A stretch of DNA of 47,098 bases from a virus. The notes below the pieces were generated by a model that was not told the DNA's origin, ran no database searches, and was given only the letters and a program-made list of their open reading frames with translations. Both the position numbers and the translations under genes were made by a program. This document shows positions 15,745-39,448 of the stretch, piece after piece (position 1 is the stretch's first letter; each line of letters opens with the position of its first letter). The DNA lies in the IMG/VR virus record IMGVR_UViG_3300031576_000083, positions 1 through 47,098 of that record. The stretch is one strand, 5' to 3'.

Positions 15745-16866
15745 CTAGTCCTTCAGCCGCGACACGGCTTCGGGGTAGAGGATCTTCCCGCCCCAGAGCA
15801 CGTCGAGCTGCCAGACGTTGCGCTTGTGCTCGCGCACGACCTCGAGCCGCAGCGTCACCCCCGTCACCGGGTCGGTCGCCACCGACTCGATCACGGCCGG
15901 GTGGCCCTGCGAGCTGAGCGGCCGGAGCGCGAAGACGAAGGCGTTGCGGTGGAAGGCGAGCCCGCCGATCTGGTGGGTCGCGCCGTCGTTCGTGATCGTG
16001 ATGACCTCGGTGTTGATGAGCGCCGCCTGGAGGCGCGGGGCCACTTCGAGCCCGCCCGCCGGGATCGACACCACCACGTAGGTCTGCGAGTGGCCGGCGA
16101 AGGTCAGCCGGTCGCCCGCCAGGAAGGCGCCCGTGCCCGCGCAGACCACGGTGGACGTGCCGCCGTTGGCGCTGACCTGCGCCGCGTGCGCCCCCGTCAC
16201 GGTCCAGCCCGTCGGGTTGCCGGCCGTGTGGAGCGGGAGCTGCCCGTTCGAGTAGAGGTCGAACTGGTACTTCCGCCCGAGCGAGGCTTCGATCAGGCCT
16301 GCCGTGTCGCCGCGCGCGTCGAAGCGGGCCATGATGTCCCGGGCCAGCAGCTCGGCCTCGATCGTGTCGCTGACGACCAGGCGCCGGTTGGCGCGCGGCG
16401 CCTTGAGGATGTTGAGCACCTTGCGCTGCGCGATCACGTCCGCCTCGGTCGCCGGGCTCGCGGCCGTCGCCATCGAGAACGACCCGCGGTAGAGGCCGCG
16501 GATGCAGAACAGGTCGATCGCGTCGCCGAGCGCGTTGATCGCCCGCTCGGCCGCCTCGGGCACGACGCGCGAGTCGATGACCTCGGCCATCTCCTTGTCG
16601 GTCATCAGCCAGCGGGATTCCTTCCACTGGTCGAGCTTGACCGACACGGTGTCGGGCGTCAGCTCGATCGCCGCGGACGGCGTGCCGGGCACCACGTCGG
16701 CGATCGTCATCGGCGCGTAGATCGGGATCTTGATCTCGTCGTTCTTCTCTTGGGCTTGGGCGTCGTAGTCCCGGTTCACCAGCATGGGCATGCGGGACTC
16801 GTTGCGGAAGGCGATGGCGGCGCGGACGATGAGTTCGTCGGCGACGGCCTGGAGGTTCTGGGGCAT
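15745..16866 (-). CDS. Major capsid protein, P22 coat type
   Basis: At 373 residues, this opens MPQNLQAVADELIVRAAIAF. The body has a helical spine region (about 75-135), an inserted beta domain (about 215-300) and an LAFHRNAFVFALRPL stretch near 300 that is typical of P22-type coat proteins. The family has the HK97 fold with an added insertion domain. The scaffold-like gene lies just upstream, as expected. P22-type coats normally serve short-tailed phages, but here the coat is joined to a lambda-type long tail. Confidence 0.88.
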   Translation of the reverse strand: MPQNLQAVADELIVRAAIAFRNESRMPMLVNRDYDAQAQEKNDEIKIPIYAPMTIADVVPGTPSAAIELTPDTVSVKLDQWKESRWLMTDKEMAEVIDSRVVPEAAERAINALGDAIDLFCIRGLYRGSFSMATAASPATEADVIAQRKVLNILKAPRANRRLVVSDTIEAELLARDIMARFDARGDTAGLIEASLGRKYQFDLYSNGQLPLHTAGNPTGWTVTGAHAAQVSANGGTSTVVCAGTGAFLAGDRLTFAGHSQTYVVVSIPAGGLEVAPRLQAALINTEVITITNDGATHQIGGLAFHRNAFVFALRPLSSQGHPAVIESVATDPVTGVTLRLEVVREHKRNVWQLDVLWGGKILYPEAVSRLKD

Positions 16867-20224: not shown

Positions 20225-21868
20225 TTACCCCTTGCGGACGCGCTGGCGCGCCGAAGGTCGCACGCGCTGGCGCGGTGCGGATCCTACCTCGCGGCGCTCC
20301 ATCGCGGTGAGCGTATCGGGATGGTCGGTGACGGGGCCACTGCGCTCCACCGCGATGAGCGTACCGAGCGGATCGTCGACGGGCCCGAACGTCCCGAGCG
20401 GCCCGAACGTCATAGGTCGCTGCGAATCCTGCTCGCTCGACGCCGCTGCCGCGAGGACGCGTAAGAACGCGCGAGCGCTCGCCACAGATGCCTCGTCGGC
20501 GCGACCGGCCGCAGCGAGCCGCAGCCAGGCGCGCGCGATGGCACTCTCCGCGTCGGAGGCCAGGCCGACAGGGAGCCCGCCGCCGAAGCTCAGCGCAAGC
20601 GCGACGTCCGTGGCGTCGGAGCGCCCGGGGTCCACCAGCTTCCGCCAGGCTCCCGCCAAGGCCGAGTCGGCCTCGGCTGCGAGCCCGCCGCCCACGGCAC
20701 GCACGAATGAAGCGCCGAGGGCCGCCACGATCTCCTGGGCCTGCCCCGCGGCCACGCGCCGCGCGAGCGCGAGCGCATTCGCGACCTCGACGGCGTTCGC
20801 CACGCCGACGCCGAGCTTCCGGCTCACGGCCAGGGCCAGCGCGGCATCCGCCTCGTTCGAGCGCCCGATGGACGCCCCGAAGGAGCGGGCGAGTCCGACG
20901 TCCGATTCAACGGAGACGCCGGCGGCCAGCAGGCGGCGCAGAGGCGCCGCGAGTGCGGTGCTCGACTCGAGGCCGAAGCCCGCGGCGATCCGCTTCGCCA
21001 GGACCTGCGCGAGCGCACTGTCCGACTCGGCGGCCAAGGCCGCTCCGCTGAGGGTCTTGCGCAGCGCTTGGGCCAAGGAGGTGCCGGACTCGGCGGCCAG
21101 CCCCGCGGGGACCAGCTTGGCGAGCGTCCGCGTCACGGCCGTGTCGGTTGCGTCGGCCCGGCCCGTGGGGAGCGGCACCAGCTCGCGGATTCCGACCCAC
21201 GCGAGGATGCAGTCGCTCGAGGTCCGCGTCGGGTTGTAGGTCTGCGTGGCCGCGGCGGTGACCACCTTGCGCTGCGACGTGATCGACACGGCGCTCGTGC
21301 CCGAACCCACCCCGGCGTGCTGGTGGGTGCTCCAGGCGCCGTTCGTCGTGTCGGCGTCGCCGGCCCAGGAGTCCGTGTTCTCGGCGAAGCCTCCGCCCAC
21401 GACCGCGTTGCCGTTCGCGATGCTGCCGGTGGTGACGGTCGGCGTGCCGGTCGCGGCCCCGGTGTTCACCCCGCCCGTGACGTACCCCACGCCGTTGCCG
21501 GCCCCGGGCGCCACCTCGGTCAGCGTCCACGCCTTGGCCTGGGTGTTCGCTCCGAAGGTCACGGTGATGACGGTCGTTGCCTGGAGCGTCCCGCCGTTCT
21601 GCTTCGTCGTGAAGACGGCCCCCTGGATGCCGGCGCTCGCGGCACCGGGGTCGTAGAGCGGGCCTTGGCGCTTGGTCCAGGTGTTGCCCAGCGTATCGGC
21701 CACGCTGTCGACGTTGTTCGTCGACCCGCCGCTGGCGGAGTTGTCCGCCGCGACCAGCAGCACCGCGAGCGCGCCCGCCACGAAGTTCGAGGCCGGGACC
21801 AGCGTGAACGTGGTGATGTTCAGCGCATTATCGGCGCCCGAGCCACGATCGGTGCAGGTCAGCGACAT
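20225..21868 (-). CDS. Virion protein with beta domain and about twelve 20-residue repeats
   Basis: The 547-residue protein has two parts. Residues 1-235 are Thr/Gly/Ala-rich and beta-like, with a DTLGNTWTKRQGP-type loop, perhaps a sandwich fold anchored to the head or tail. Residues 236-478 consist of roughly twelve repeats of 20 residues with a pattern of acidic pair, Ala-Leu-Ala, basic residue, Ala-Ala-Gly. The end (about 480-547) is Arg/Pro-rich with PRQRVRPSARQRVRKG. Similar repeat runs occur in some phage and bacterial surface proteins. Its place between portal and MuF is odd for a fibre. The repeats may form a helical stalk, though this is not demonstrated. Confidence 0.65.
   Translation of the reverse strand: MSLTCTDRGSGADNALNITTFTLVPASNFVAGALAVLLVAADNSASGGSTNNVDSVADTLGNTWTKRQGPLYDPGAASAGIQGAVFTTKQNGGTLQATTVITVTFGANTQAKAWTLTEVAPGAGNGVGYVTGGVNTGAATGTPTVTTGSIANGNAVVGGGFAENTDSWAGDADTTNGAWSTHQHAGVGSGTSAVSITSQRKVVTAAATQTYNPTRTSSDCILAWVGIRELVPLPTGRADATDTAVTRTLAKLVPAGLAAESGTSLAQALRKTLSGAALAAESDSALAQVLAKRIAAGFGLESSTALAAPLRRLLAAGVSVESDVGLARSFGASIGRSNEADAALALAVSRKLGVGVANAVEVANALALARRVAAGQAQEIVAALGASFVRAVGGGLAAEADSALAGAWRKLVDPGRSDATDVALALSFGGGLPVGLASDAESAIARAWLRLAAAGRADEASVASARAFLRVLAAAASSEQDSQRPMTFGPLGTFGPVDDPLGTLIAVERSGPVTDHPDTLTAMERREVGSAPRQRVRPSARQRVRKG
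20435..21163 (-). repeat. About twelve degenerate 60-bp in-frame repeats
   Basis: Unit spacing between the acidic positions is 20 residues in most cases, with one unit of 21 and one of 18. Examples are AESDSALAQVLAKRIAAG and LESSTALAAPLRRLLAAG. The two odd-length units show in-frame indels, so the array has been evolving by slippage or unequal exchange. Confidence 0.8.
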
Positions 21869-22112: not shown

Positions 22113-23654
22113 TCATGCAGCGGAGACCTCCTCCTCCTCCTCCTCGTCGCCAGGCGCCGGCTCCTCCTCGGAGTCGTCCGCGTCCGTGCCGGCTCCGAGC
22201 TGCGCGCGGAGCTGTGCCGCCATCGCCTCGCGCTCCTGCGCGGCGCCGCCCACCTCGCGGTTCTTGGCGAGGTTCTCCTTCACCTTCACCCACGCCTCGG
22301 CCTCGTTCGTCACGTTCGGGTGGCGCGCCATGTACCACTCGGCCTTCGAGGCGATGCCCTCCTCGACCTCGGCAATCCACTCCTCGGCCGCGCGGTCGGT
22401 CACTTGGAAGTGCCGGTTGTAGACGACCTTGACCTCGGGCTTGGCCTCGCCCCAGGCTCGCGCGAGCAGGCGCAGCACCGCCTCCTCGCCGCGCTCGGCC
22501 GACCCGGCGTGCTGCTCCAGCAGGGCGAGAAACTCCTGCCGGTCCTGCTCGCGCTTCTCGCCGCTCTCGGGCGCCGCGCTCGGGAGCTGCGCGCGCGCCG
22601 TGCGGTTGAACACGAGGTCCGCCACGCGGTCGACGATGGCGTTGATGCGCCGCATCCCCATCTCCGCCGGCACGCCAGTGGGGGCCGTGTAGGTCACCTT
22701 CGCGTCCTTCGGAATCTTGAGCCCCGCGCGCTCGCCGACCTTGATCTCGCTCACGGCGTCGTCGGTGGCGAACGTGAGGATCTCGAAGCCCTGGTGGTAG
22801 AAGCCTTCATCGAGCACGGACCACGTGTTCCAGAGCGCGTTGGCCGACAGCACCACGTCGTCGAAGATCGTCTGCGCCTGCATCGGCGCTTCGAAGTCGG
22901 CGTAGAACAGCACGAGCGGGACTTCGCCGAGGTGGTTCGGCATCTCGACGCCATCGTCGTCGCGCCCGCGCTTGCGGTCCTTGCCGACCTCGTAGGTGGT
23001 GATGGTGTTGCGCCGATAGACGCGATACCGGAGCAGCTCCTCGCCGCCCTGGCCGAGCGGCTCTCGGCCCCGCGTCACCTGGTCCAGGATCGTGACCCAG
23101 TTGAGCTGGCCGCGGCGCGCCGGGTCTTCCCGCTCCCAGTCCCAGTCGATGATGTTGAGCGGGCTCAGCAGCTCGCACCACGGCCGCAGGTTCTGCACTT
23201 GCGCCACAGCCTCGCTCACGGCGGCGCCGTCGGGGCTTCGCAGGGCGCCGAGCGGCGGCCCGTCCACCAGCACGCCGAAGACCCCGAGCAGCTTTGCCTT
23301 CGCCGTGACGCGCTCGAAGAAGTCGTCGGCGGAGGTGCCGAGCAGGTCGATGTTCGCGAGCGCCGGCGCCAGGCGCGACGGAAGCGTTCGCACCGGTTTC
23401 ACGCGGTAGAGCTGCGACTGGTAGACGTGCAGCGCCTTGCGCGGCAGGTTGTCGTAGAGCAGCATGGCGCGGTCGAGCCGGTCGGTGTAGTCCTCGTTGC
23501 TCTCCGTCCAGAAGCGCTTGAGGTAGCGCGGGGTGACGTTGCGGTTCTCGCGCTCGAGCGAGCGCCCGCCGTCGTAGTGGTGCTCGGCCATCGCCCAGGC
23601 CGGCCGCTGCTGCGCGTAGTACGGGTGGCGCTTCGTCAGGTCGAGCTGCGGCAT
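22113..23654 (-). CDS. Portal protein
   Basis: The 513-residue protein (start at the second ATG, 23654, because GGGAG lies five bases upstream) has portal-type features: KRHPYYAQQRPAWAMAEHHY near the start, a long helical middle, and a strongly acidic C-terminus of Asp and Glu. It resembles DUF4055-type portals found with MuF proteins and P22-type coats. The ATG at 23666 would give 517 residues but lies right next to the parS-like palindrome. The portal forms the ring for DNA entry and head-tail joining. Confidence 0.85.
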   Translation of the reverse strand: MPQLDLTKRHPYYAQQRPAWAMAEHHYDGGRSLERENRNVTPRYLKRFWTESNEDYTDRLDRAMLLYDNLPRKALHVYQSQLYRVKPVRTLPSRLAPALANIDLLGTSADDFFERVTAKAKLLGVFGVLVDGPPLGALRSPDGAAVSEAVAQVQNLRPWCELLSPLNIIDWDWEREDPARRGQLNWVTILDQVTRGREPLGQGGEELLRYRVYRRNTITTYEVGKDRKRGRDDDGVEMPNHLGEVPLVLFYADFEAPMQAQTIFDDVVLSANALWNTWSVLDEGFYHQGFEILTFATDDAVSEIKVGERAGLKIPKDAKVTYTAPTGVPAEMGMRRINAIVDRVADLVFNRTARAQLPSAAPESGEKREQDRQEFLALLEQHAGSAERGEEAVLRLLARAWGEAKPEVKVVYNRHFQVTDRAAEEWIAEVEEGIASKAEWYMARHPNVTNEAEAWVKVKENLAKNREVGGAAQEREAMAAQLRAQLGAGTDADDSEEEPAPGDEEEEEEVSAA

Positions 23655-23666
23655 CGGCGCTCCCAT

Positions 23667-23682
23667 TGTTCCACGTGGAACA
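23667..23682. promoter_or_regulatory. parS-like palindrome TGTTCCACGTGGAACA
   Basis: This is a perfect 16-bp palindrome that differs at only two symmetric bases from the common chromosomal parS consensus TGTTTCACGTGAAACA. It is one base from the first ATG of the portal gene. The window also encodes a ParB-like protein (36583-38091). I saw no other full match in the window. Whether the phage protein or the host ParB binds it is not known. Confidence 0.75.
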
Positions 23683-23705
23683 TTCCCGCGCGATCGACCG
23701 CAACC

Positions 23706-23792
23706 CTAGCAGGGCGCGAGGACGGGGCCTGGCTGCGCGAACCACGCCGCGAGCAGGGCCAGGGCCACGGCGCCCGAAGAACGCACGTCCAC
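23706..23792 (-). CDS. Possible 28-residue hydrophobic peptide
   Basis: A GTG at 23792, shortly after the lipoyl gene stop, opens 28 codons with a hydrophobic ALALLAAWFAQPGPVLA core and a stop at 23706-23708. It fills the gap between the lipoyl protein and the portal and could be a tiny membrane peptide. There is no clear ribosome site, so it may be chance. Confidence 0.25.
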   Translation of the reverse strand: MDVRSSGAVALALLAAWFAQPGPVLAPC

Positions 23793-23796
23793 GGGG

Positions 23797-24090
23797 CTAC
23801 TCCACCGGGTAGATGCGGCAGAAGGGAGCGCCCGGCATCAGGACGTCGCCCGCGGCCACGCGCCAAGCGATCAGTCCGGTCAGCTTGAGCCGCCAGGCGT
23901 ACTCGACCTTCTCGCACTCCAGCACGGCGACTGGCACGGTTTGGCCGGCCCGGTTCGCCCCCGCCTCCACCAGCGCGCCCTCCTCGACGAGCAGCTCGAC
24001 CACGTGCACCGGCTTGCCGGTCTGGAGCGTGGGGATCGGGATCTCGACGAACTCGAGCGGTTCCGGTTCGCTCACGACGGGCACCTCCAC
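23797..24090 (-). CDS. Stand-alone lipoyl/biotinyl attachment domain protein
   Basis: Started at the GTG at 24090, with GGTAGGA eight bases upstream, the protein has 97 residues, about the size of a single lipoyl domain. It shows the fold pattern of lipoyl/biotinyl carrier domains: VEIPIPTL opening, GKPVHVVELLVEEGALVEAG, a central CEKV turn with Lys61 in the place of the modified lysine (usually DK), then TGLIAWRVAAGDVLMPGAPF. In metabolism these domains carry lipoate or biotin on swinging arms of dehydrogenases and carboxylases, but no such enzyme is present here. It lies upstream of the portal and may be a virion protein using the same fold. Confidence 0.72.
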   Translation of the reverse strand: MEVPVVSEPEPLEFVEIPIPTLQTGKPVHVVELLVEEGALVEAGANRAGQTVPVAVLECEKVEYAWRLKLTGLIAWRVAAGDVLMPGAPFCRIYPVE

Positions 24091-24202
24091 GGCCCGTATC
24101 CTACCGGGTTTCACGGCGCCTCGGTGCTCCACGCTTCGCGCAAGAAGCGCAGCAGGTCGGGGTAGCTGGCACCACGAGCACAAGTCGTCGAGCGCACCCA
24201 AC

Positions 24203-24248
24203 CGTTAGAAATGGCCCGCGGCTCCGAGCCGCGCCGATATTTCTAACG
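24203..24248. promoter_or_regulatory. Nested palindrome between divergent genes
   Basis: Outer arms CGTTAGAAAT and ATTTCTAACG (24203-24212 and 24239-24248) are perfect inverted copies, and an inner palindrome GCGGCTCCGAGCCGC (24218-24232) lies between. The AT-rich outer arms stand out in this GC-rich DNA. It lies between the lipoyl gene (minus) and the HTH gene (plus), so it may be an operator for the HTH protein, a terminator, or an att-like site. Confidence 0.55.
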
Positions 24249-24267
24249 CCCGGGGTCGTGTGTCACG

Positions 24268-24543
24268 GTGGGCGGCACTTTGACCAAGCGGAGCGTCAGC
24301 CCCACGACCGACACGGACTTTCCCACCGTGAGGAAAGCTGCTGAGCGCGCCCGCATCGGCGAGCGCGCAATCCGGGCAGCTGTGCGCCGCGGCGAGCTCG
24401 CGCTCTACCGGCCCGACGGCACTTGGCCGCGCATCTACTGGCCCGAGCTGGTGTCGTGGGTGAGGGCTTCACGGGTGCGCGCCACACCGCATGCCGAAGC
24501 GCGGCTTGCCGAGGTGCTCGAGCGCGAGGGCGAGATGCCCTAG
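24268..24543 (+). CDS. Excisionase/MerR-like HTH DNA-binding protein (plus strand)
   Basis: The 91-residue protein begins at a GTG (24268). A helix-turn-helix stretch lies about residues 19-50 (FPTVRKAAERARIGERAIRA), followed by a basic RRGELALYRPDG wing and a C-terminal helix. This layout is that of small HTH_17-type proteins such as excisionases and phage regulators. It is transcribed away from the virion operon, with a nested palindrome 20 bases upstream, which is a good candidate binding site. No integrase is in the window, so a regulator is more likely than an excisionase. Confidence 0.6.
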   Translation: MGGTLTKRSVSPTTDTDFPTVRKAAERARIGERAIRAAVRRGELALYRPDGTWPRIYWPELVSWVRASRVRATPHAEARLAEVLEREGEMP

Positions 24544-24667
24544 CCCCGAGACGGCGCCAGGGATGACGAGTCTGAGCAGCGACCCTAGCGAACGAAGTCA
24601 CGCAGTACAGCAGGTGTGCCTCGAATCCTCCAGCACCGCGAGCGAGAAAGGAAGAAGTGACAGTTTC

Positions 24668-24711
24668 AGCTGCAGCCAGAGTCTCAGCGAGAGCTGCAGT
24701 AGTAGCTGCAG
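24668..24711. repeat. Three copies of AGCTGCAG with 24- and 12-base spacing
   Basis: AGCTGCAG occurs at 24668-24675, 24692-24699 and 24704-24711, in the gap between the ends of the plus-strand HTH gene and the minus-strand small gene. Each copy is nearly self-complementary. They may be protein sites or a local slippage array. The rest of 24544-24711 shows no gene. Confidence 0.4.
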
Positions 24712-24900
24712 TCAGTAGTCCTCGGATAGACGAGCGGTCGTGCGGACTTGCGATTTCGACTGCCCAGCCTGGAGTGCCATAGAGCCCGTAGGTTCCATCC
24801 GCGCCGCAGTCCCAGGAGTTCTCGCCCCGTTCCACCCGCGGCCGTGGCTCCAGTAGCGAGGCGGCTTGTGGTCGTTCAAGTCCTGCCAACGCCAGCTCAT
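24712..24900 (-). CDS. Small hypothetical protein, Trp-rich N-terminus
   Basis: The 62-residue frame starts at ATG 24900 in an ATGA overlap and begins MSWRWQDLNDHKPPRYWSHG. The first half looks coding; the second half has lower GC at third positions, and a neighbouring frame reads NSWDCGADGTYGLYGTPG, so an indel near residue 24 cannot be excluded. The function is unknown. Confidence 0.45.
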   Translation of the reverse strand: MSWRWQDLNDHKPPRYWSHGRGWNGARTPGTAARMEPTGSMALQAGQSKSQVRTTARLSEDY

Positions 24901-25244
24901 CGCGTTCCTCCCGTCCGTGCCTTCCGCACGCGGTCGAACTCCGACATCATGTGCGCCTTGCCGTTGGCCGCCACGCCGGCGATCAGCTCGGCCGCCTCCT
25001 CGAGTCCGCCGGCGAGTGATTCGCGCCTCGCGTAGATGGACACCTGGTCGTGGAAGGCGAGCGCCGCCCAGTCCATCGCGCGCTCGGCCTCGTAGATCGC
25101 GGTGCCCACGCAGCGCCAGTCCTCGTCGGCCCGTTCGAGGGCGGTGTTCGGCATGCGGAACCAGCGCCAGCCAAACCAGAGCGACGTGACCCTGGCCCAG
25201 CGCCCGCCTCGCAGGCGGCGGTACCAGCGGAAGCGGCTCAGCAC
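24897..25244 (-). CDS. Hypothetical protein
   Basis: The 115-residue protein is read from the GTG at 25244, which overlaps the end of the preceding gene. It begins with an Arg/Trp-rich region (RFRWYRRLRGGRWARVTSLW) and continues with helices rich in Ala and Glu. It overlaps the next small gene by ATGA. No family is recognised. The operon placement with two other small genes suggests an accessory role. Confidence 0.55.
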   Translation of the reverse strand: MLSRFRWYRRLRGGRWARVTSLWFGWRWFRMPNTALERADEDWRCVGTAIYEAERAMDWAALAFHDQVSIYARRESLAGGLEEAAELIAGVAANGKAHMMSEFDRVRKARTGGTR

Positions 25245-25633
25245 TCGGGATGATCGAGCAGCACCTCGTCGGCGTGTGACAGGCCGTCTGGGGTGAAGCA
25301 GCCGAGCAGACCGACCACCATGTTCGACACCCACGCATCGGGGTCGAAGTCCGTCACGGCGCCGTTGCTGGTGGTGGCGCGCACCGCGTAGCGGGCCGCG
25401 GCCTCGACCTGCTCGACGAGTTCGCGCCGACGCGGATCGTCCATCCCGACGCGCTGCGGCATCGGCGGGTCGTTGTCGCCAGGCGCCGTCAGCCAGTGGT
25501 CTGCCGGCAGCGGCAGGGACATCGTGGCGAAGCCGCTCCCGTCGGGCAGCGGCCCGTGGACCTCTTCGATGGTGCCGCCGCAGTCGCTCGCGAGTCGTTG
25601 CAAGACTTCGGGAATCCTCGGGTCGTCGGGCAT
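25238..25633 (-). CDS. Hypothetical protein
   Basis: The ATG at 25633, with GGGGAGGA six bases upstream, gives 131 residues; the longer frame upstream is not supported. It opens MPDDPRIPEVLQRLASDCGG and has mixed helices and loops, ending LLDHPEC. No motif was recognised. It is the first gene after the probable terminator at 25.7 kb. Confidence 0.65.
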   Translation of the reverse strand: MPDDPRIPEVLQRLASDCGGTIEEVHGPLPDGSGFATMSLPLPADHWLTAPGDNDPPMPQRVGMDDPRRRELVEQVEAAARYAVRATTSNGAVTDFDPDAWVSNMVVGLLGCFTPDGLSHADEVLLDHPEC

Positions 25634-25683
25634 GGCGGTCCTCCCCGTGTGCCGTGATGCCGACTGCTTAGCCCCGTGCTCCA

Positions 25684-25725
25684 GAAAGCGAAAGGGCGCG
25701 CCGGCTGTGCAGGCCAACGCGCCCT
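25684..25725 (-). terminator. Probable rho-independent terminator
   Basis: Arms AGGGCGCG and CGCGCCCT (25718-25725 and 25693-25700) form an 8-bp perfect stem, with a 17-base loop that can pair further inside. On the minus strand the stem is followed by TTTCGCTTTCT. It lies between the terminase block and the next small genes, so it would end a transcript from the terminase genes. Confidence 0.6.
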
Positions 25726-25874
25726 CCCGTGATGGGGGGTATGCCATCAAAGGGCTGAAAGACTGAAAGACCTTCTTGCGTGGTCCCTTGCCGAATCTCT
25801 CCAGTGCTACCACCGCCGTCTGAACCCGAGTCCCTCCCGGGCACGACGTCGGCACTGCGACGCTAGCGCCGCCG

Positions 25875-26159
25875 TCAGAGTGACACCACCTCCTCGGGCG
25901 GCTCCGTCGAGTAGCGGTCCTTCTGGACGCGGCGGCGCTTGGGCGGTTGCATGGCGGGCTCGCGGAACTCGGCCCGTGCCTGCCGGCCGTGCCAATGCGA
26001 GCGCCGGATCGAGACGTGATCCCCGTCGTGGTCGCTGGCCCGGATGCAGCGCGCCTGGAAGCCGTTGCGTAGCGCGGTGGCGTTGCAGCGGCCCACGCGA
26101 TCGGGATCGACGACGTGCGCCGCGTAATCCCGAGCCGGCTTCTTCTTCACGAAGTGCAT
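25875..26159 (-). CDS. Small probable zinc-binding protein
   Basis: The 94-residue protein has an ATG at 26159 with GGGGAG upstream. It contains CNATALRNGFQARCIRASDH, then DGDHVS: a C-x(n)-C followed by two His (H43 and H48 region) that could bind zinc. Similar short GH-G-H motifs are common in phage small proteins. It is the gene after the large terminase. The function is unknown. Confidence 0.65.
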   Translation of the reverse strand: MHFVKKKPARDYAAHVVDPDRVGRCNATALRNGFQARCIRASDHDGDHVSIRRSHWHGRQARAEFREPAMQPPKRRRVQKDRYSTEPPEEVVSL

Positions 26160-26174
26160 TGTCCGCTCCCCTGG

Positions 26175-27590
26175 TTATGCGTTTGGCCGCAGGATGTCCC
26201 GCGGGTTGAACATTTCGATCGCGTCGCCCGCGCGAACCTTGTGGCGGAGCTCGAACCAGTAGCCGGTGGCGTCGGTGATGTGGATCATCTGACCACACTT
26301 CTGCTCGTCCGGCTCGCTCGTGCCCTCCTTGTAGAGCACGCCCTCCAAGTCGGTGATGAGCCGCGAGGTGCCGAAACCCTCGCGGTCGGAGACGAGCGAC
26401 GGGTGGATGTGGACGCGGCGTCGACCGGCGGCGTTCAAGAACTGGCCGTTGACGGCGTTCCACCGGTCGCGCCTCGAGGGTGCGGCGTCACGGCTGGCGG
26501 TCTTGAAGCCGGCGGCCTGGAGCAGCGAGTGGTCCGTAGCGCCGGCGACGGCGCTGCTCTTGCGCGCCTTGCCGCTCGGGTCGGGGTGCATCATGAAGGC
26601 GCCGAACCGCCCGGCCCGCTGCTCGCAGCGGAGCTTGATCTCGCGCGCGGCCACCGACGTGTCGGCGTTGCGGGCCCAATAGGCGTCGTACACGAAGGCG
26701 TGCTTCTCGATCCTGCCGTCGGGCGCGCGCAGGTCCTGCTCCCAGCCCCAGACGGCGCACATGGGGTCCACGTTGAAATCCATCCCGCCGAGCCAGGGCA
26801 TTCCCTCCGTGCCGATCCCGGGCGGCAGCGGGAACTCGTGGACGTCGAGCCGTCGGTCGAAGGCGTAGTAGATCCGACCGGCGGCGTCCTCCCAGCTCGC
26901 CTCCATCTGCTCGCGGAAGTCGCGCGGCGACAGGTCGTGGCGCAGCGCCTCGATCTGCGACGGCTCCAGCACCTCGTCCGCGCGCCAGGTGTAGGCGCCC
27001 CAACGGTCGCCTTTCAGTTGCGCATCGCACCAGCGGTTCCAGTAGTGGTTGCGGCCGACCGGCGAGCCGATCAACCACAGCTTGCCCTGGTGGCCGCGGG
27101 TCGCGAGCGCCGGGCGCAGCACCTTCGTGAAGACCTCGGGCCGCATCTCGCCGTACTCGTCGAGGATCAGGAAGTCCACGGGCCGGCCGGCAATCCGCGG
27201 CTTCTCGAGCCCCACCACGCGAACCAGCCAGCCCGTCGACGTGGCGAGCAGCAGCTCGCTCTCGCGCAGGAGCGTGATCCAGTCGCGCGGGATCAGCGCC
27301 TTGACCCGATCCCACCAGATCAACTTCGCCTGCGCGCGGGTCGGCGCGCCGAGGACCGCGTTGCGGTAGGTGTCGAACACGCCGGGGCGGAACCCGCGGG
27401 TGGGGTTCGCGATCTCCCGGAGCAGCGCCCAGCACGCGATGTGGGTCTTGCCGCTCCGTCGCGCCGCCGGCACGATCATGTACGGGCGGGTGTCGAGCCA
27501 CAGCGCGCGCTGCGCGGGCACGTGCAGCTCGAACGGCGCCACGCACGCCGGGTCGATCCCGGACGGCGGCCGGATCTGGAGCGACGACAC
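26175..27590 (-). CDS. terL: Terminase large subunit
   Basis: The GTG at 27590 gives 471 residues. The ATPase half has a Walker A AARRSGKT (42-49) and a Walker B FLILDEYGEM (140-149), with the catalytic Glu after Asp. The nuclease half begins near GGMDFNVDP (Asp271) and has further acidic residues downstream. It moves DNA into the head and cuts the concatemer. It lies three bases after the small subunit gene. The length is normal for the family. The packaging mode cannot be decided by eye. Confidence 0.93.
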   Translation of the reverse strand: MSSLQIRPPSGIDPACVAPFELHVPAQRALWLDTRPYMIVPAARRSGKTHIACWALLREIANPTRGFRPGVFDTYRNAVLGAPTRAQAKLIWWDRVKALIPRDWITLLRESELLLATSTGWLVRVVGLEKPRIAGRPVDFLILDEYGEMRPEVFTKVLRPALATRGHQGKLWLIGSPVGRNHYWNRWCDAQLKGDRWGAYTWRADEVLEPSQIEALRHDLSPRDFREQMEASWEDAAGRIYYAFDRRLDVHEFPLPPGIGTEGMPWLGGMDFNVDPMCAVWGWEQDLRAPDGRIEKHAFVYDAYWARNADTSVAAREIKLRCEQRAGRFGAFMMHPDPSGKARKSSAVAGATDHSLLQAAGFKTASRDAAPSRRDRWNAVNGQFLNAAGRRRVHIHPSLVSDREGFGTSRLITDLEGVLYKEGTSEPDEQKCGQMIHITDATGYWFELRHKVRAGDAIEMFNPRDILRPNA

Positions 27591-32791: not shown

Positions 32792-33045
32792 GCGCACGCC
32801 CTCATGCAGGACTGCGCCCCTGGCGTGTCCGCGCTGACCCAGTTCATCTGCTCGTCGGTGACGTTCACGTAGTGCGCCGGCACCACGGACAGGTCCTCGC
32901 GGAGATTATCGAGGTCGTTGCCGTAGATGCCTTCGACTTCCTGTGCGTGCTTCAGGACCGCCGCGCGCGCGATTGCCTCGTCCTGCGTCCCGAGAACCAG
33001 CCACTCGTCGCCGCCGTCTAGGGAGATCACTTCGGGGTCGCTCAC
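32788..33045 (-). CDS. Hypothetical protein
   Basis: The 85-residue protein starts with a GTG at 33045 (GTGA overlap), reads MSDPEVISLDGGDEWLVLGT, and is acidic with mixed helices. It sits between the DUF5131 gene and another small gene. The function is unknown. Confidence 0.65.
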   Translation of the reverse strand: MSDPEVISLDGGDEWLVLGTQDEAIARAAVLKHAQEVEGIYGNDLDNLREDLSVVPAHYVNVTDEQMNWVSADTPGAQSCMRACA

Positions 33046-33974
33046 GGCTTCGCCTCCGTCTTCGGGAACTCGCGCACGCGCAGGTCAGTCGGCCACTCAG
33101 TCGGGTCGCCTCCCTTGCGGTGACGCAGCTCGATGGGCACGAGACAGCCTCCCTTGGCGGTCCCCACTTCTCGGTACGCACACGGGAAGGAACCGAGTTG
33201 TTTGCAGAACACCGGCACCATCGCCGCCTTGCACTGCTCGACGAGGCTGCGGATCCAGGCGACATCGCACGGGCGCGCGCCGGGGCCGCTCTCGCCTCCG
33301 ACGATCACCCAATCTGGACCGCGAGCGTTGGCGCCGAGCGTCGGATCGTTCTTCAGGCGCCAGAGCACCACCGGCCCGAGCAGCGGCTCCACCGAGAGGA
33401 AGCGCACCGCCGCCGGCGTCTGGAGCAGCAGCGGAATCCGCTCGTCGGCGCGCGCCTGATCCTCGCAGCTCGTCCCCAGCCAGACGTTTCGGATGGGCCA
33501 GGTCCAATCGACGTGGCACACGCTGCGCACACCGATTCGATTGAGGGCGTTGCCGACGCAAGCCTTCACTGCGGCGTCTTCGAGCCCAGTGAAGCACCCG
33601 ATCACTTCGCGCATCCGCTCGGGCCTCTTCGTCAAGATCTGGAAGGTGTGCTGCGGCGCGAGCGCCGCGACGCCGAGCACGGCGAGGATAAACTCGTCCG
33701 GCACCTTCTCATGAAAAAGATCCGACATCGAGTTGACGAAGATCCGCCGCGGCTTCCTCCACCGCAGCGGCTCGTCGAGCTTCTCGGGCACGAGGCGGAC
33801 GTCGCCGGTCCAGACGGGGCCGCAGTTCGTGAGCTTCGTCAGGCCCGCATACCAGCCGGTCGAGAAGCGGTGCGCCTGCTTCATGGCGTAGCAGTTCGTG
33901 CAGCCCGGCGAGACGACGGAGCAGCCGCGCACGGGATTCCAGGTGAAATCGGTCCATTGGATCGTGGTCATCAT
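33042..33974 (-). CDS. DUF5131 / phage Gp37-Gp68 family protein, three-Cys motif
   Basis: The 310-residue protein starts at the second of two ATGs (ATGA overlap). It carries the family signature CSVVSPGCTNCYA, with Cys18, Cys25 and Cys28 placed as in radical-SAM-like proteins (C-x6-C-x2-C), followed by FVNSMSDLFHEKV and ILTKRPERM, typical of the family. The family is of unknown function and probably uses a metal cluster. Its common partner, TcmP, is not visible here. It is in an operon with a YkgJ-like cysteine-cluster protein. Confidence 0.85.
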   Translation of the reverse strand: MMTTIQWTDFTWNPVRGCSVVSPGCTNCYAMKQAHRFSTGWYAGLTKLTNCGPVWTGDVRLVPEKLDEPLRWRKPRRIFVNSMSDLFHEKVPDEFILAVLGVAALAPQHTFQILTKRPERMREVIGCFTGLEDAAVKACVGNALNRIGVRSVCHVDWTWPIRNVWLGTSCEDQARADERIPLLLQTPAAVRFLSVEPLLGPVVLWRLKNDPTLGANARGPDWVIVGGESGPGARPCDVAWIRSLVEQCKAAMVPVFCKQLGSFPCAYREVGTAKGGCLVPIELRHRKGGDPTEWPTDLRVREFPKTEAKP

Positions 33975-36582: not shown

Positions 36583-38091
36583 TCACTTCTTCCCCTTCGC
36601 CTTCATCCTGCGGGCCGGCCTCTTCTCCTTCGCCGCCACCACTGCCTTGAGGTACGCCGCGCACGCAGCACGCACCTTCGCCCGGTCCACGCCGAGCGCG
36701 CGTTCGAGCGCGGGCGCGTCTGTCGCGTAGGCCGGCAGCAGCGCGACGATGCAGCGCGCGCGATCGGCCGTTGACTTCGGCACCAGCTTGCCTCCGTAGA
36801 GCGCTTCGCAGTGCTCCAGCCGGGCCCCGAAGATCCCGGCGCTGAGCTGACGAATCACCGCGTCGAGCAGAACGTTCGCGCCTGCCGACACCTTCAGCGG
36901 GAGCACGCCTGCCGCTTGTGACACCATGCGCCGCCTCACCTCCAGCTGCACCGCGTTGTCGAAGCGCCGCTTCCGGCCTTCGTTCAGCGCCGCCTCGCGT
37001 GTTCGGCCTCCGGTACCGGCCACCTTGAACGAGTGCCCAGCGAGCGCGAGCGCTGCGCGCGCCTGCTTCGCGTCGACCAGCTCGACGGTTCGATCTTCGA
37101 GCACGGCCAGCGTGATCGGCGGGCAGTGCTTGCCGAGCAGCCGCGAGTAGACGCGCTGCTTCGGGTCCTCGACGCAGCGATCCGACAGCAGCTTCCACCT
37201 ACGGCTGTCTCGCACCGCGTCTCTCGCGGCGCTGTCGGTGAGCACCGCCGTACCCGCCGCCTTCGCCTCGCGGAGTCGAGTCGCGCCGACCTCCTTGATC
37301 TTTCCGTCCCAGCAGGCGAAGTCGAGGCAGCGATCGTCCTTCTCCGTACCCTCCTCGAAGAGCAGCACCTGGGCCGCGCTTCGCTTCGGGCAGGCGGCGC
37401 ACGGGCCGCCCGGGAGCGTTGCGTCCTTCCGATCGAAGGGCGCGTCGGAGAGCTTGCGCCTCAATCCTTCGACGTGATGGCGCACCCAGTGGGCGTCGAC
37501 TGTTCCTTTCGGGGCGTACTGCGTGCCGCGCTTCCACGCTTTCTGCATCGCCGACTCGCTCTGCAACGTGCCGATCAGTTCAGCCGCGCCGAGCGACAGA
37601 CGTTCCTCGTCCAGCGCCTTGCGCACCGCCTTCGGCAGCGCCAGCAGTCGCAGCCGCCGCGCCACCGTCGTCGGCGAGAGCCCGACCCGGGCCGCCGCCT
37701 CCTCGATGTTCCCGTCGTGCTGCGCGAGCAGGTGCCGGCAGGTGTCGGCCTGCTGAAGCGGGGTCGGGTTCACGCGGTGGAGGTTCTCGGCGATGAGGGC
37801 TTCGAGCGCGCGATCATCCGCCATCGCCTCCTCGCACTGCGCGCGGCCCCAGGCATCCGGGCCGAGCGTCACGTCGAGCTTGAGCTTCTGGAGCGCCGCG
37901 AGCCGGCGGTGGCCGAAGACCACCTCGTAGTGTCCCGCCTTCTCCGCGTGCGGGCGGAGCCGGATCTTCTGGAGCAGGCCGCGCTCCGCGATGTCGCGGG
38001 CGAGGTCGTCGATGCTGCCGCGCGCGCCCTCGGGCTGGAAGCGGCTCGGGTGGATCTTCGCGTAGGGGATCGCCGTCGTTTCGATTGCCAT
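36583..38091 (-). CDS. ParB-like DNA-binding protein
   Basis: At 502 residues it has a ParB/Srx N-terminal domain with GHRR (60-63) in place of the GERR CTP motif, ENLHR (102-106) and a helix-turn-helix near 130-150 (EEAAARVGLSPTTVARRLRL). The middle part has a CAACPKRS and CLDFACW Cys set that may bind zinc. It ends with a basic KKRPARRMKAKGKK-like tail. ParB proteins spread from parS using CTP; the phage has a parS-like site at 23667. The leader AGAGGACCACGGCA is shared with the next upstream gene. Confidence 0.82.
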   Translation of the reverse strand: MAIETTAIPYAKIHPSRFQPEGARGSIDDLARDIAERGLLQKIRLRPHAEKAGHYEVVFGHRRLAALQKLKLDVTLGPDAWGRAQCEEAMADDRALEALIAENLHRVNPTPLQQADTCRHLLAQHDGNIEEAAARVGLSPTTVARRLRLLALPKAVRKALDEERLSLGAAELIGTLQSESAMQKAWKRGTQYAPKGTVDAHWVRHHVEGLRRKLSDAPFDRKDATLPGGPCAACPKRSAAQVLLFEEGTEKDDRCLDFACWDGKIKEVGATRLREAKAAGTAVLTDSAARDAVRDSRRWKLLSDRCVEDPKQRVYSRLLGKHCPPITLAVLEDRTVELVDAKQARAALALAGHSFKVAGTGGRTREAALNEGRKRRFDNAVQLEVRRRMVSQAAGVLPLKVSAGANVLLDAVIRQLSAGIFGARLEHCEALYGGKLVPKSTADRARCIVALLPAYATDAPALERALGVDRAKVRAACAAYLKAVVAAKEKRPARRMKAKGKK

Positions 38092-38122: not shown

Positions 38123-39448
38123 TTATCGCTCGTTCACGACGCCGCGCACGCGTCCGTCTTCGAGGATCACCGTGCAGGAGTCGTCTTCGCGCACGACCTC
38201 CAGCCACACCTGAGCCTCGGCCGCTGCGGCCATCTCTCCAAGCAGGCGCAGGTTGTCAGCGTCGAGGAGGCTCCCGTCGCGCACCAGCAGCACGCGCAGG
38301 GTGGGGTTGAGCGCGAGCCCCATCGCCACCGACACGCGGAGCTGCTCCGCGCTGCTCGCCTGCGCGAACGGCACGCCTTGGAAGACGACGCCGTGCTCGT
38401 CGAACGACAGGCCCGGCACCGGGAAGGCCGCGCCCGCGAGGCCCTTGGCCTTTTCCGCGTCGAGTGCCTCGATCGCCGCGCTCAGCTTCTCGACCTGCGC
38501 GCGCCCGCCGGCGACCTCGGCCGCCTGCTCGGCGCGGTCGGCGTTCTCGCGCCCTTTCCGGTTCTGCTCCTCCGCCGACGCGATGCGCGCGCGAATCGGT
38601 GCGAGGTCCGGGACCGCGGCCCGCTGGGCATCGGCCGCAGCGCGAGCCCCCCCCGCTCCCTTGCGCTGCGCCGCCAGCAGATCCTCCTCGTAGACCGCTG
38701 CCCTTCTCGCCTCCGTGAGATCGCTCTCGAGTTTCGCGCGGTGCTCCCTGGACTCTGACACGCGCTCCTCGTGCCGCGCGATGTCGCGCTCCCACTCCTG
38801 CGCTGCGCGCTCCGCTTCGTCCGCTTCGTTGACGATCCTCTGCCCTGCGTCCAGCTCCACGAGCAGATCCCCGACGATGATCGACTGCGCAGGCGCGTCG
38901 GCGTGCAACGTCATCGCCGCCAGCCGTGCCTCCAGCGCCTTTGTCGTGCGGGAGACGGCCGTGCGCTCCTCGAACAGCCCGAGCCGCTTCGCCTCCAGCG
39001 CCACGAAGTCGAGCCCGACGAGCGCCCGCAGCGTCTCGCGCTGCTGCCTCGGCTCCTGCATCACGAACGCCAGCGGGTCGAAGCTCAGGCGCCCGAGCAG
39101 CCGGTCGAGCAGCGCCTGCGGCGACCGGAAGACGGCGCCCTCCTTGTTCGACAGCGTGAGGCTCCCGCCGCCCGCGGCAGTGAAGGTGCGCCGCGCGATG
39201 ACCCCGTCGTTCAGCTCCACCTCGACGTGGCCGTGGTCCGCCCCCTTGCGCAGCGGGAGCGCGGGCACCAGGTCTTTGCCGCCCAAAGCCATCGCGATCG
39301 AGTCGAGCACGGACGACTTGCCCGCCCCGTTCTTGCCGCCGACCACCACCAGGTTGCCCTCGGGCGTGATCTCGACGGCAACCAGTCGCTTCACGTTCTC
39401 GGCCTCGAGCCGCACGATGCGGAGCGGGGCCGCGGTCTTCTCGCTCAT
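38123..39448 (-). CDS. SMC/RecF-type ATPase
   Basis: The 441-residue protein has a Walker A GKNGAGKSS (38-46), a long coiled-coil region (about 160-330), and a QLRVSVAMGLAL signature with LRVLLVRDGSLLD at the C-terminal end, the place of the ABC signature and Walker B. The acidic residue after Walker B Asp is Gly rather than Glu (DG), so hydrolysis may be weak. It is small for an SMC and nearer to RecF or phage SbcC-type proteins. It precedes the ParB-like gene. Confidence 0.8.
   Translation of the reverse strand: MSEKTAAPLRIVRLEAENVKRLVAVEITPEGNLVVVGGKNGAGKSSVLDSIAMALGGKDLVPALPLRKGADHGHVEVELNDGVIARRTFTAAGGGSLTLSNKEGAVFRSPQALLDRLLGRLSFDPLAFVMQEPRQQRETLRALVGLDFVALEAKRLGLFEERTAVSRTTKALEARLAAMTLHADAPAQSIIVGDLLVELDAGQRIVNEADEAERAAQEWERDIARHEERVSESREHRAKLESDLTEARRAAVYEEDLLAAQRKGAGGARAAADAQRAAVPDLAPIRARIASAEEQNRKGRENADRAEQAAEVAGGRAQVEKLSAAIEALDAEKAKGLAGAAFPVPGLSFDEHGVVFQGVPFAQASSAEQLRVSVAMGLALNPTLRVLLVRDGSLLDADNLRLLGEMAAAAEAQVWLEVVREDDSCTVILEDGRVRGVVNER

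Follow-up and report, generated by a model that had tools for sequence, protein, structure and literature searches.

The window, that is, the whole stretch of DNA that was analysed, is a tailed-phage record of 47,098 bases with 69% GC, in which a 2,520-bp insert separates the genes for the terminase large subunit and the portal protein. The insert contains a gene for a 97-aa lipoyl-domain-like protein (P0002), three other small ORFs without a known family and a possible divergent helix-turn-helix ORF. The features of the locus, in the order of transcription of the minus-strand genes, are:

26175-27590, minus strand: terminase large subunit (phrog_2, E = 1.9e-30), the upstream border of the insert
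23655-26174: insert of 2,520 bp with the P0002 gene, flanked by terminase large subunit and portal and delimited by gene adjacency in about 75 relatives
25875-26159, minus strand: 94-aa ORF of the insert, no known family (codon score 15.9; no Pfam match)
25238-25603, minus strand: 121-aa ORF of the insert, no known family (codon score 26.1; no Pfam or PHROG match)
24897-25244, minus strand: 115-aa ORF of the insert, no known family (codon score 31.8; no phage match)
24268-24543, plus strand: possible HTH_17/excisionase-like ORF, 91 aa (sub-threshold match to PF12728, E = 0.088)
24204-24247: 44-nt palindrome between the P0002 gene and the divergent HTH-like ORF, folding strongly on either strand (z = -3.5 and -4.1)
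23797-24090, minus strand: gene for the 97-aa lipoyl-domain-like protein, P0002 (translation, codon statistics, profile matches)
23908-23910, minus strand: codon of Lys61 in the ECEK-V hairpin (HMMER, MAFFT alignments A2 and A3, HHalign with and without ECEK masked)
22113-23654, minus strand: portal protein (phrog_145, E = 2.4e-62), the downstream border of the insert
15745-16866: P22-type coat protein, beyond the portal

The P0002 gene starts with GTG at 24090 and stops at 23797 on the minus strand, and its 97 codons are translated into MEVPVVSEPEPLEFVEIPIPTLQTGKPVHVVELLVEEGALVEAGANRAGQTVPVAVLECEKVEYAWRLKLTGLIAWRVAAGDVLMPGAPFCRIYPVE. Under a codon model derived from the long genes on the minus strand of the window, this frame has a log-likelihood of 33.4, compared with 9.8 for the best overlapping ORF on the plus strand. 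The GC content at the three codon positions is 0.77/0.41/0.93, a codon signature that is common to P0002 and other genes of the phage, with the plus-strand frames scoring far lower. Because the codon model clearly favours this frame, 23797-24090 on the minus strand is a real gene. The 97-residue protein that a sequence-only reading of this DNA had placed here is borne out, and the strand, missing from that reading, can be added.

The ORF at 24268-24543 is divergent from the P0002 gene and its codon bias is weaker than that of its neighbours. The palindrome between the two, GTTAGAAAT...ATTTCTAAC, has a GC-rich core, is present in a single copy in the window and is possibly an operator or a hairpin. 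Next to the HTH-like ORF, about 350 bases (24544-24896), in which the GC content goes down to 0.63, consist of short CTGCAG-rich repetitive text with no convincing gene.

Elsewhere in the genome, a lambda-like tail-tip gene also lies downstream of the portal, and a 547-aa gene that comes soon after the portal (20225-21868) encodes repeated 'AESDSALA'-like segments and belongs to no known family. A DUF5131 family protein is encoded at 33042-33974 (E = 2e-83). The apparent replication side of the genome includes a ParB-like protein with ParB_N and HTH_ParB domains (36583-38091) and an SMC/RecN-like AAA ATPase whose gene (38123-39448) adjoins it.

The terminase and portal genes adjoin each other in about 75 relatives (81 rows, six of which repeat the same records) that were found mainly via the terminase and share 33-35% identity at best; the gap between the two genes is estimated there at about -21 to +90 nt. 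The P0002 gene is therefore an insert, not a conserved head gene. Searches with the portal and major capsid proteins detected no relatives in IMG/VR, whereas the terminase search did find some. In the Tunturiibacter phage Tunturi_4, a glycosyltransferase gene is located between terminase and portal (L082:1567-2565), so that this site accepts accessory genes. As these relatives are distant ones and IMG/VR contains redundant records, the comparison reveals a variable place in the genome rather than the time of the arrival of the insert. The position of the insert tips the balance away from a head protein and towards an accessory gene, and the P0002 gene is likely to be accessory. The initial description of the gene as lying among virion genes is thus correct with regard to position, but the gene sits in a terminase-portal insert.

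Searches of the curated family collections with P0002 yielded little. There is no match to Biotin_lipoyl (PF00364), for which the curated family cut-off is not reached, and the sole Pfam match at any score is a sub-threshold one, to Biotin_lipoyl_2 (PF13533; residues 30-44, E = 0.089, 13.1 bits compared with the cut-off of 29.8). PHROGs, NCBIfam and PDB sequence searches found nothing. The resemblance comes out in comparisons with a custom 33-member profile, for which lipoyl and biotinyl domains were collected from eight bacterial genomes and which includes three seed domains. In a HMMER search against P0002 together with its reversed sequence and 50,000 shuffles, P0002 scored 14.1 bits and ranked second of 50,002, with one of the shuffled copies outscoring it; among 6,412 six-frame viral ORFs, it ranked first, with an E-value of 0.027, compared with 1.8 for the next ORF. 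HHalign aligned P0002 with the same profile over 81 columns with a score of 25.8 (P = 6.9e-5); the highest scores of the controls were 14.1 (500 shuffles) and 16.0 (500 viral ORFs). When phmmer was run on the ORFs of 131 phage and bacterial loci, the three best matches of P0002 were genuine lipoyl/biotinyl domains (E-values of 0.4 to 1.4).

The lipoyl-like pattern in P0002 is, accordingly, beyond chance and extends over nearly the full length of the protein. With an HMM of lipoyl domains only, the raw HMMER rank of P0002 is 7th of about 50,000, so that the support for the lipoyl reading is good, not overwhelming. Single-sequence AlphaFold2 models, with pLDDT of 46 for the whole protein and 41 for a trimmed version, are too poor for use. 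On the strength of the profiles, P0002 looks like a lipoyl domain and probably is a domain of the lipoyl type; it is not formally assigned to Biotin_lipoyl, as it falls short of the curated threshold when tested against it. The profile search that had been suggested against the Biotin_lipoyl families thus gives a split answer, with custom profiles matching P0002 but PF00364 failing to match and PF13533 staying below threshold. The proposal of a stand-alone lipoyl/biotinyl domain, from which that search followed, is supported by the sequence profiles, best for the E2 type, but lacks a PF00364 match at the curated cut-off. Overall, the initial interpretation is partly supported.

Pattern-based scans, with three query forms in IMG/VR and one in GTDB genomes, detected no homologues of P0002; such scans reach close relatives only, so that distant relatives may exist. 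None were detected by tblastn in 50,697 phages and 72,556 plasmids either. Patterns derived from P0002 aligned with genuine lipoyl domains produced no confirmed distant relative, and a search of the whole records of 13 viral relatives, which had no positive control, found nothing. When the phage collection was queried by tblastn, a single classical lipoyl domain retrieved 19 records and a single biotinyl domain 29 records, and the annotated records among these encode ordinary bacterial enzymes in DNA resembling that of the host.

Comparison with the individual families narrows the assignment. The best HHalign match of P0002 is to the E2-type lipoyl subset (30.6 over 72 columns, P = 1.8e-5), whereas the match to the biotinyl subset is weaker (22.6 over 58 columns). 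With the lipoyl domain of E2 (PF00364), P0002 shares a near full-length alignment that includes the N-terminal 'vEIpiPtL' segment, an E2-like strand, as well as the two half motifs (V-x-x-G-x-x-V-x-x-G) and the E-x-x-K-V hairpin with Lys61 at the modified position. There are also differences: P0002 is phage-borne, falls below the Pfam cut-offs and stands alone whereas the E2 domain is fused to an acyltransferase; it contains a 7-residue insertion ahead of the lysine strand; it has ECEK in place of E-x-DK; and the usual E-V-P-A-P segment after the lysine is missing. The insertion, the ECEK sequence and the missing segment could disturb lipoylation. The biotinyl domains of BCCP, pyruvate carboxylase and similar proteins belong to the same fold class as that predicted for P0002 and align with the lysine in register, but P0002 lacks their A-M-K-M motif. 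GcvH (PF01597) is likewise a small, separate lipoate carrier; a GcvH-type identity was rejected (HHalign score of 12.6 over 9 columns), and so was an HlyD-type one (16.0 over 15 columns). Nor is P0002 a 2-oxoacid dehydrogenase E2 enzyme, being a single 97-aa domain; when the larger ORFs were scanned with Pfam, neither an acyltransferase core nor partner families came up.

Lys61, one of only three lysines in P0002, occurs in the context L-E-C-E-K-V, which confirms the initial placement of this residue in a CEKV turn. All full-length alignments, whether by HMMER, MAFFT or HHalign, place it opposite the modified lysine; the glutamate at position -3 relative to Lys61, a residue that matters to lipoate ligases, is kept in the MAFFT alignment. 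After masking of ECEK, the register is unchanged and the HHalign score is 26.7, compared with 19.7 for the best masked shuffle, which aligns over only 17 columns. The placement of Lys61 therefore did not drive the match and provides independent support for it.

The resemblance and the location of the gene can be accounted for in other ways. P0002 could be an unmodified lipoyl-type barrel that is made with the late genes and serves as a part of the virion or of head assembly, for instance in capsid decoration or head completion, with Lys61 being incidental. The gene is indeed flanked by terminase and portal and lies on the late strand, and the product is small and beta-rich, as are the capsid decoration and cement proteins encoded in head modules; the structural option came from the sequence-only reading itself. 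Relatives with both terminase and portal have nothing at this position, however, which speaks against a core head gene, and the two capsid-cement families do not match: the profiles of the lambda-type decoration protein (PF02924) and of Phage_cement_2 (PF09956) fail, with HHalign scores of 13.8 over 16 columns and 13.4 over 13 columns, respectively. The structural option is weakened by the adjacency of terminase and portal in the relatives together with these failures, and appears unlikely. A slightly less probable alternative is that P0002 is an unmodified lipoyl-like module that binds another host target, for instance as a protein-protein adaptor or an inhibitor, and is regulated by the divergent HTH gene via the palindrome. 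The divergent HTH-like ORF, the 44-nt palindrome and the location in an accessory insert are all compatible with such a role; conversely, the HTH match is sub-threshold, and Lys61 and the glutamate three residues earlier, both in register, would be needless in an unmodified module. Finally, an unrelated small beta-rich protein with a Gly/Val pattern that imitates a lipoyl domain is improbable: the lack of a curated family match and of detected homologues, the one shuffled copy with a higher score, the poor structure models and the choice of the hypothesis after the sequence had been viewed, which calls for a correction for many families, are in its favour, but it is at odds with the full-length alignment, the presence of both half motifs, the lysine that stays in register after ECEK masking, the first rank among the viral ORFs and the preference for lipoyl domains over the four other families compared.

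The analysis shows the gene, its resemblance to lipoyl profiles, where Lys61 falls in the alignments, and the insert; the fold, modification, partner and effect of P0002 are inferred. According to the preferred reading, P0002 would be a stand-alone E2-type lipoyl-domain-like module encoded in an accessory (moron-like) insert. By the profile alignment, it is predicted to adopt the lipoyl barrel fold, in which the hairpin tip would carry Lys61, and the lipoylation enzymes of the host, of the LplA or LipB/LipA type, would probably attach lipoate to this lysine. The window contains no match to lipoate ligase (PF03099), so that the modification would be supplied by the host. There is also no PF00364 match in the window, nor did such a family turn up when its larger ORFs were scanned with Pfam, and, within the range of these tests, the initial claim that the window encodes no lipoate-dependent enzyme holds. 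Lipoylated P0002 might then act as a free mimic or decoy of the E2 domain of the host and draw away lipoate or the E1/E3 partners of 2-oxoacid dehydrogenases, and such competition may shift the carbon flux of the host in infection. The other option of the sequence-only reading, that the phage modifies host metabolism, may hold. For the functional chain as a whole, that is, an accessory E2-type lipoyl module that is lipoylated by the host and is a free mimic of the host E2 domain, the probability is estimated at about 0.35-0.4. The more specific proposition that such a domain, as the product of an accessory phage gene, reroutes or blocks the 2-oxoacid dehydrogenases of the host by swinging-arm mimicry is more doubtful.

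Lipoyl domains are the swinging arms of central-metabolism enzymes. In the open literature searched, no description was found of a phage steering host metabolism through swinging-arm mimicry. If the proposed reading is correct, P0002 would be a phage protein that imitates the swinging arm of central-carbon enzymes and steers the metabolism of the host.
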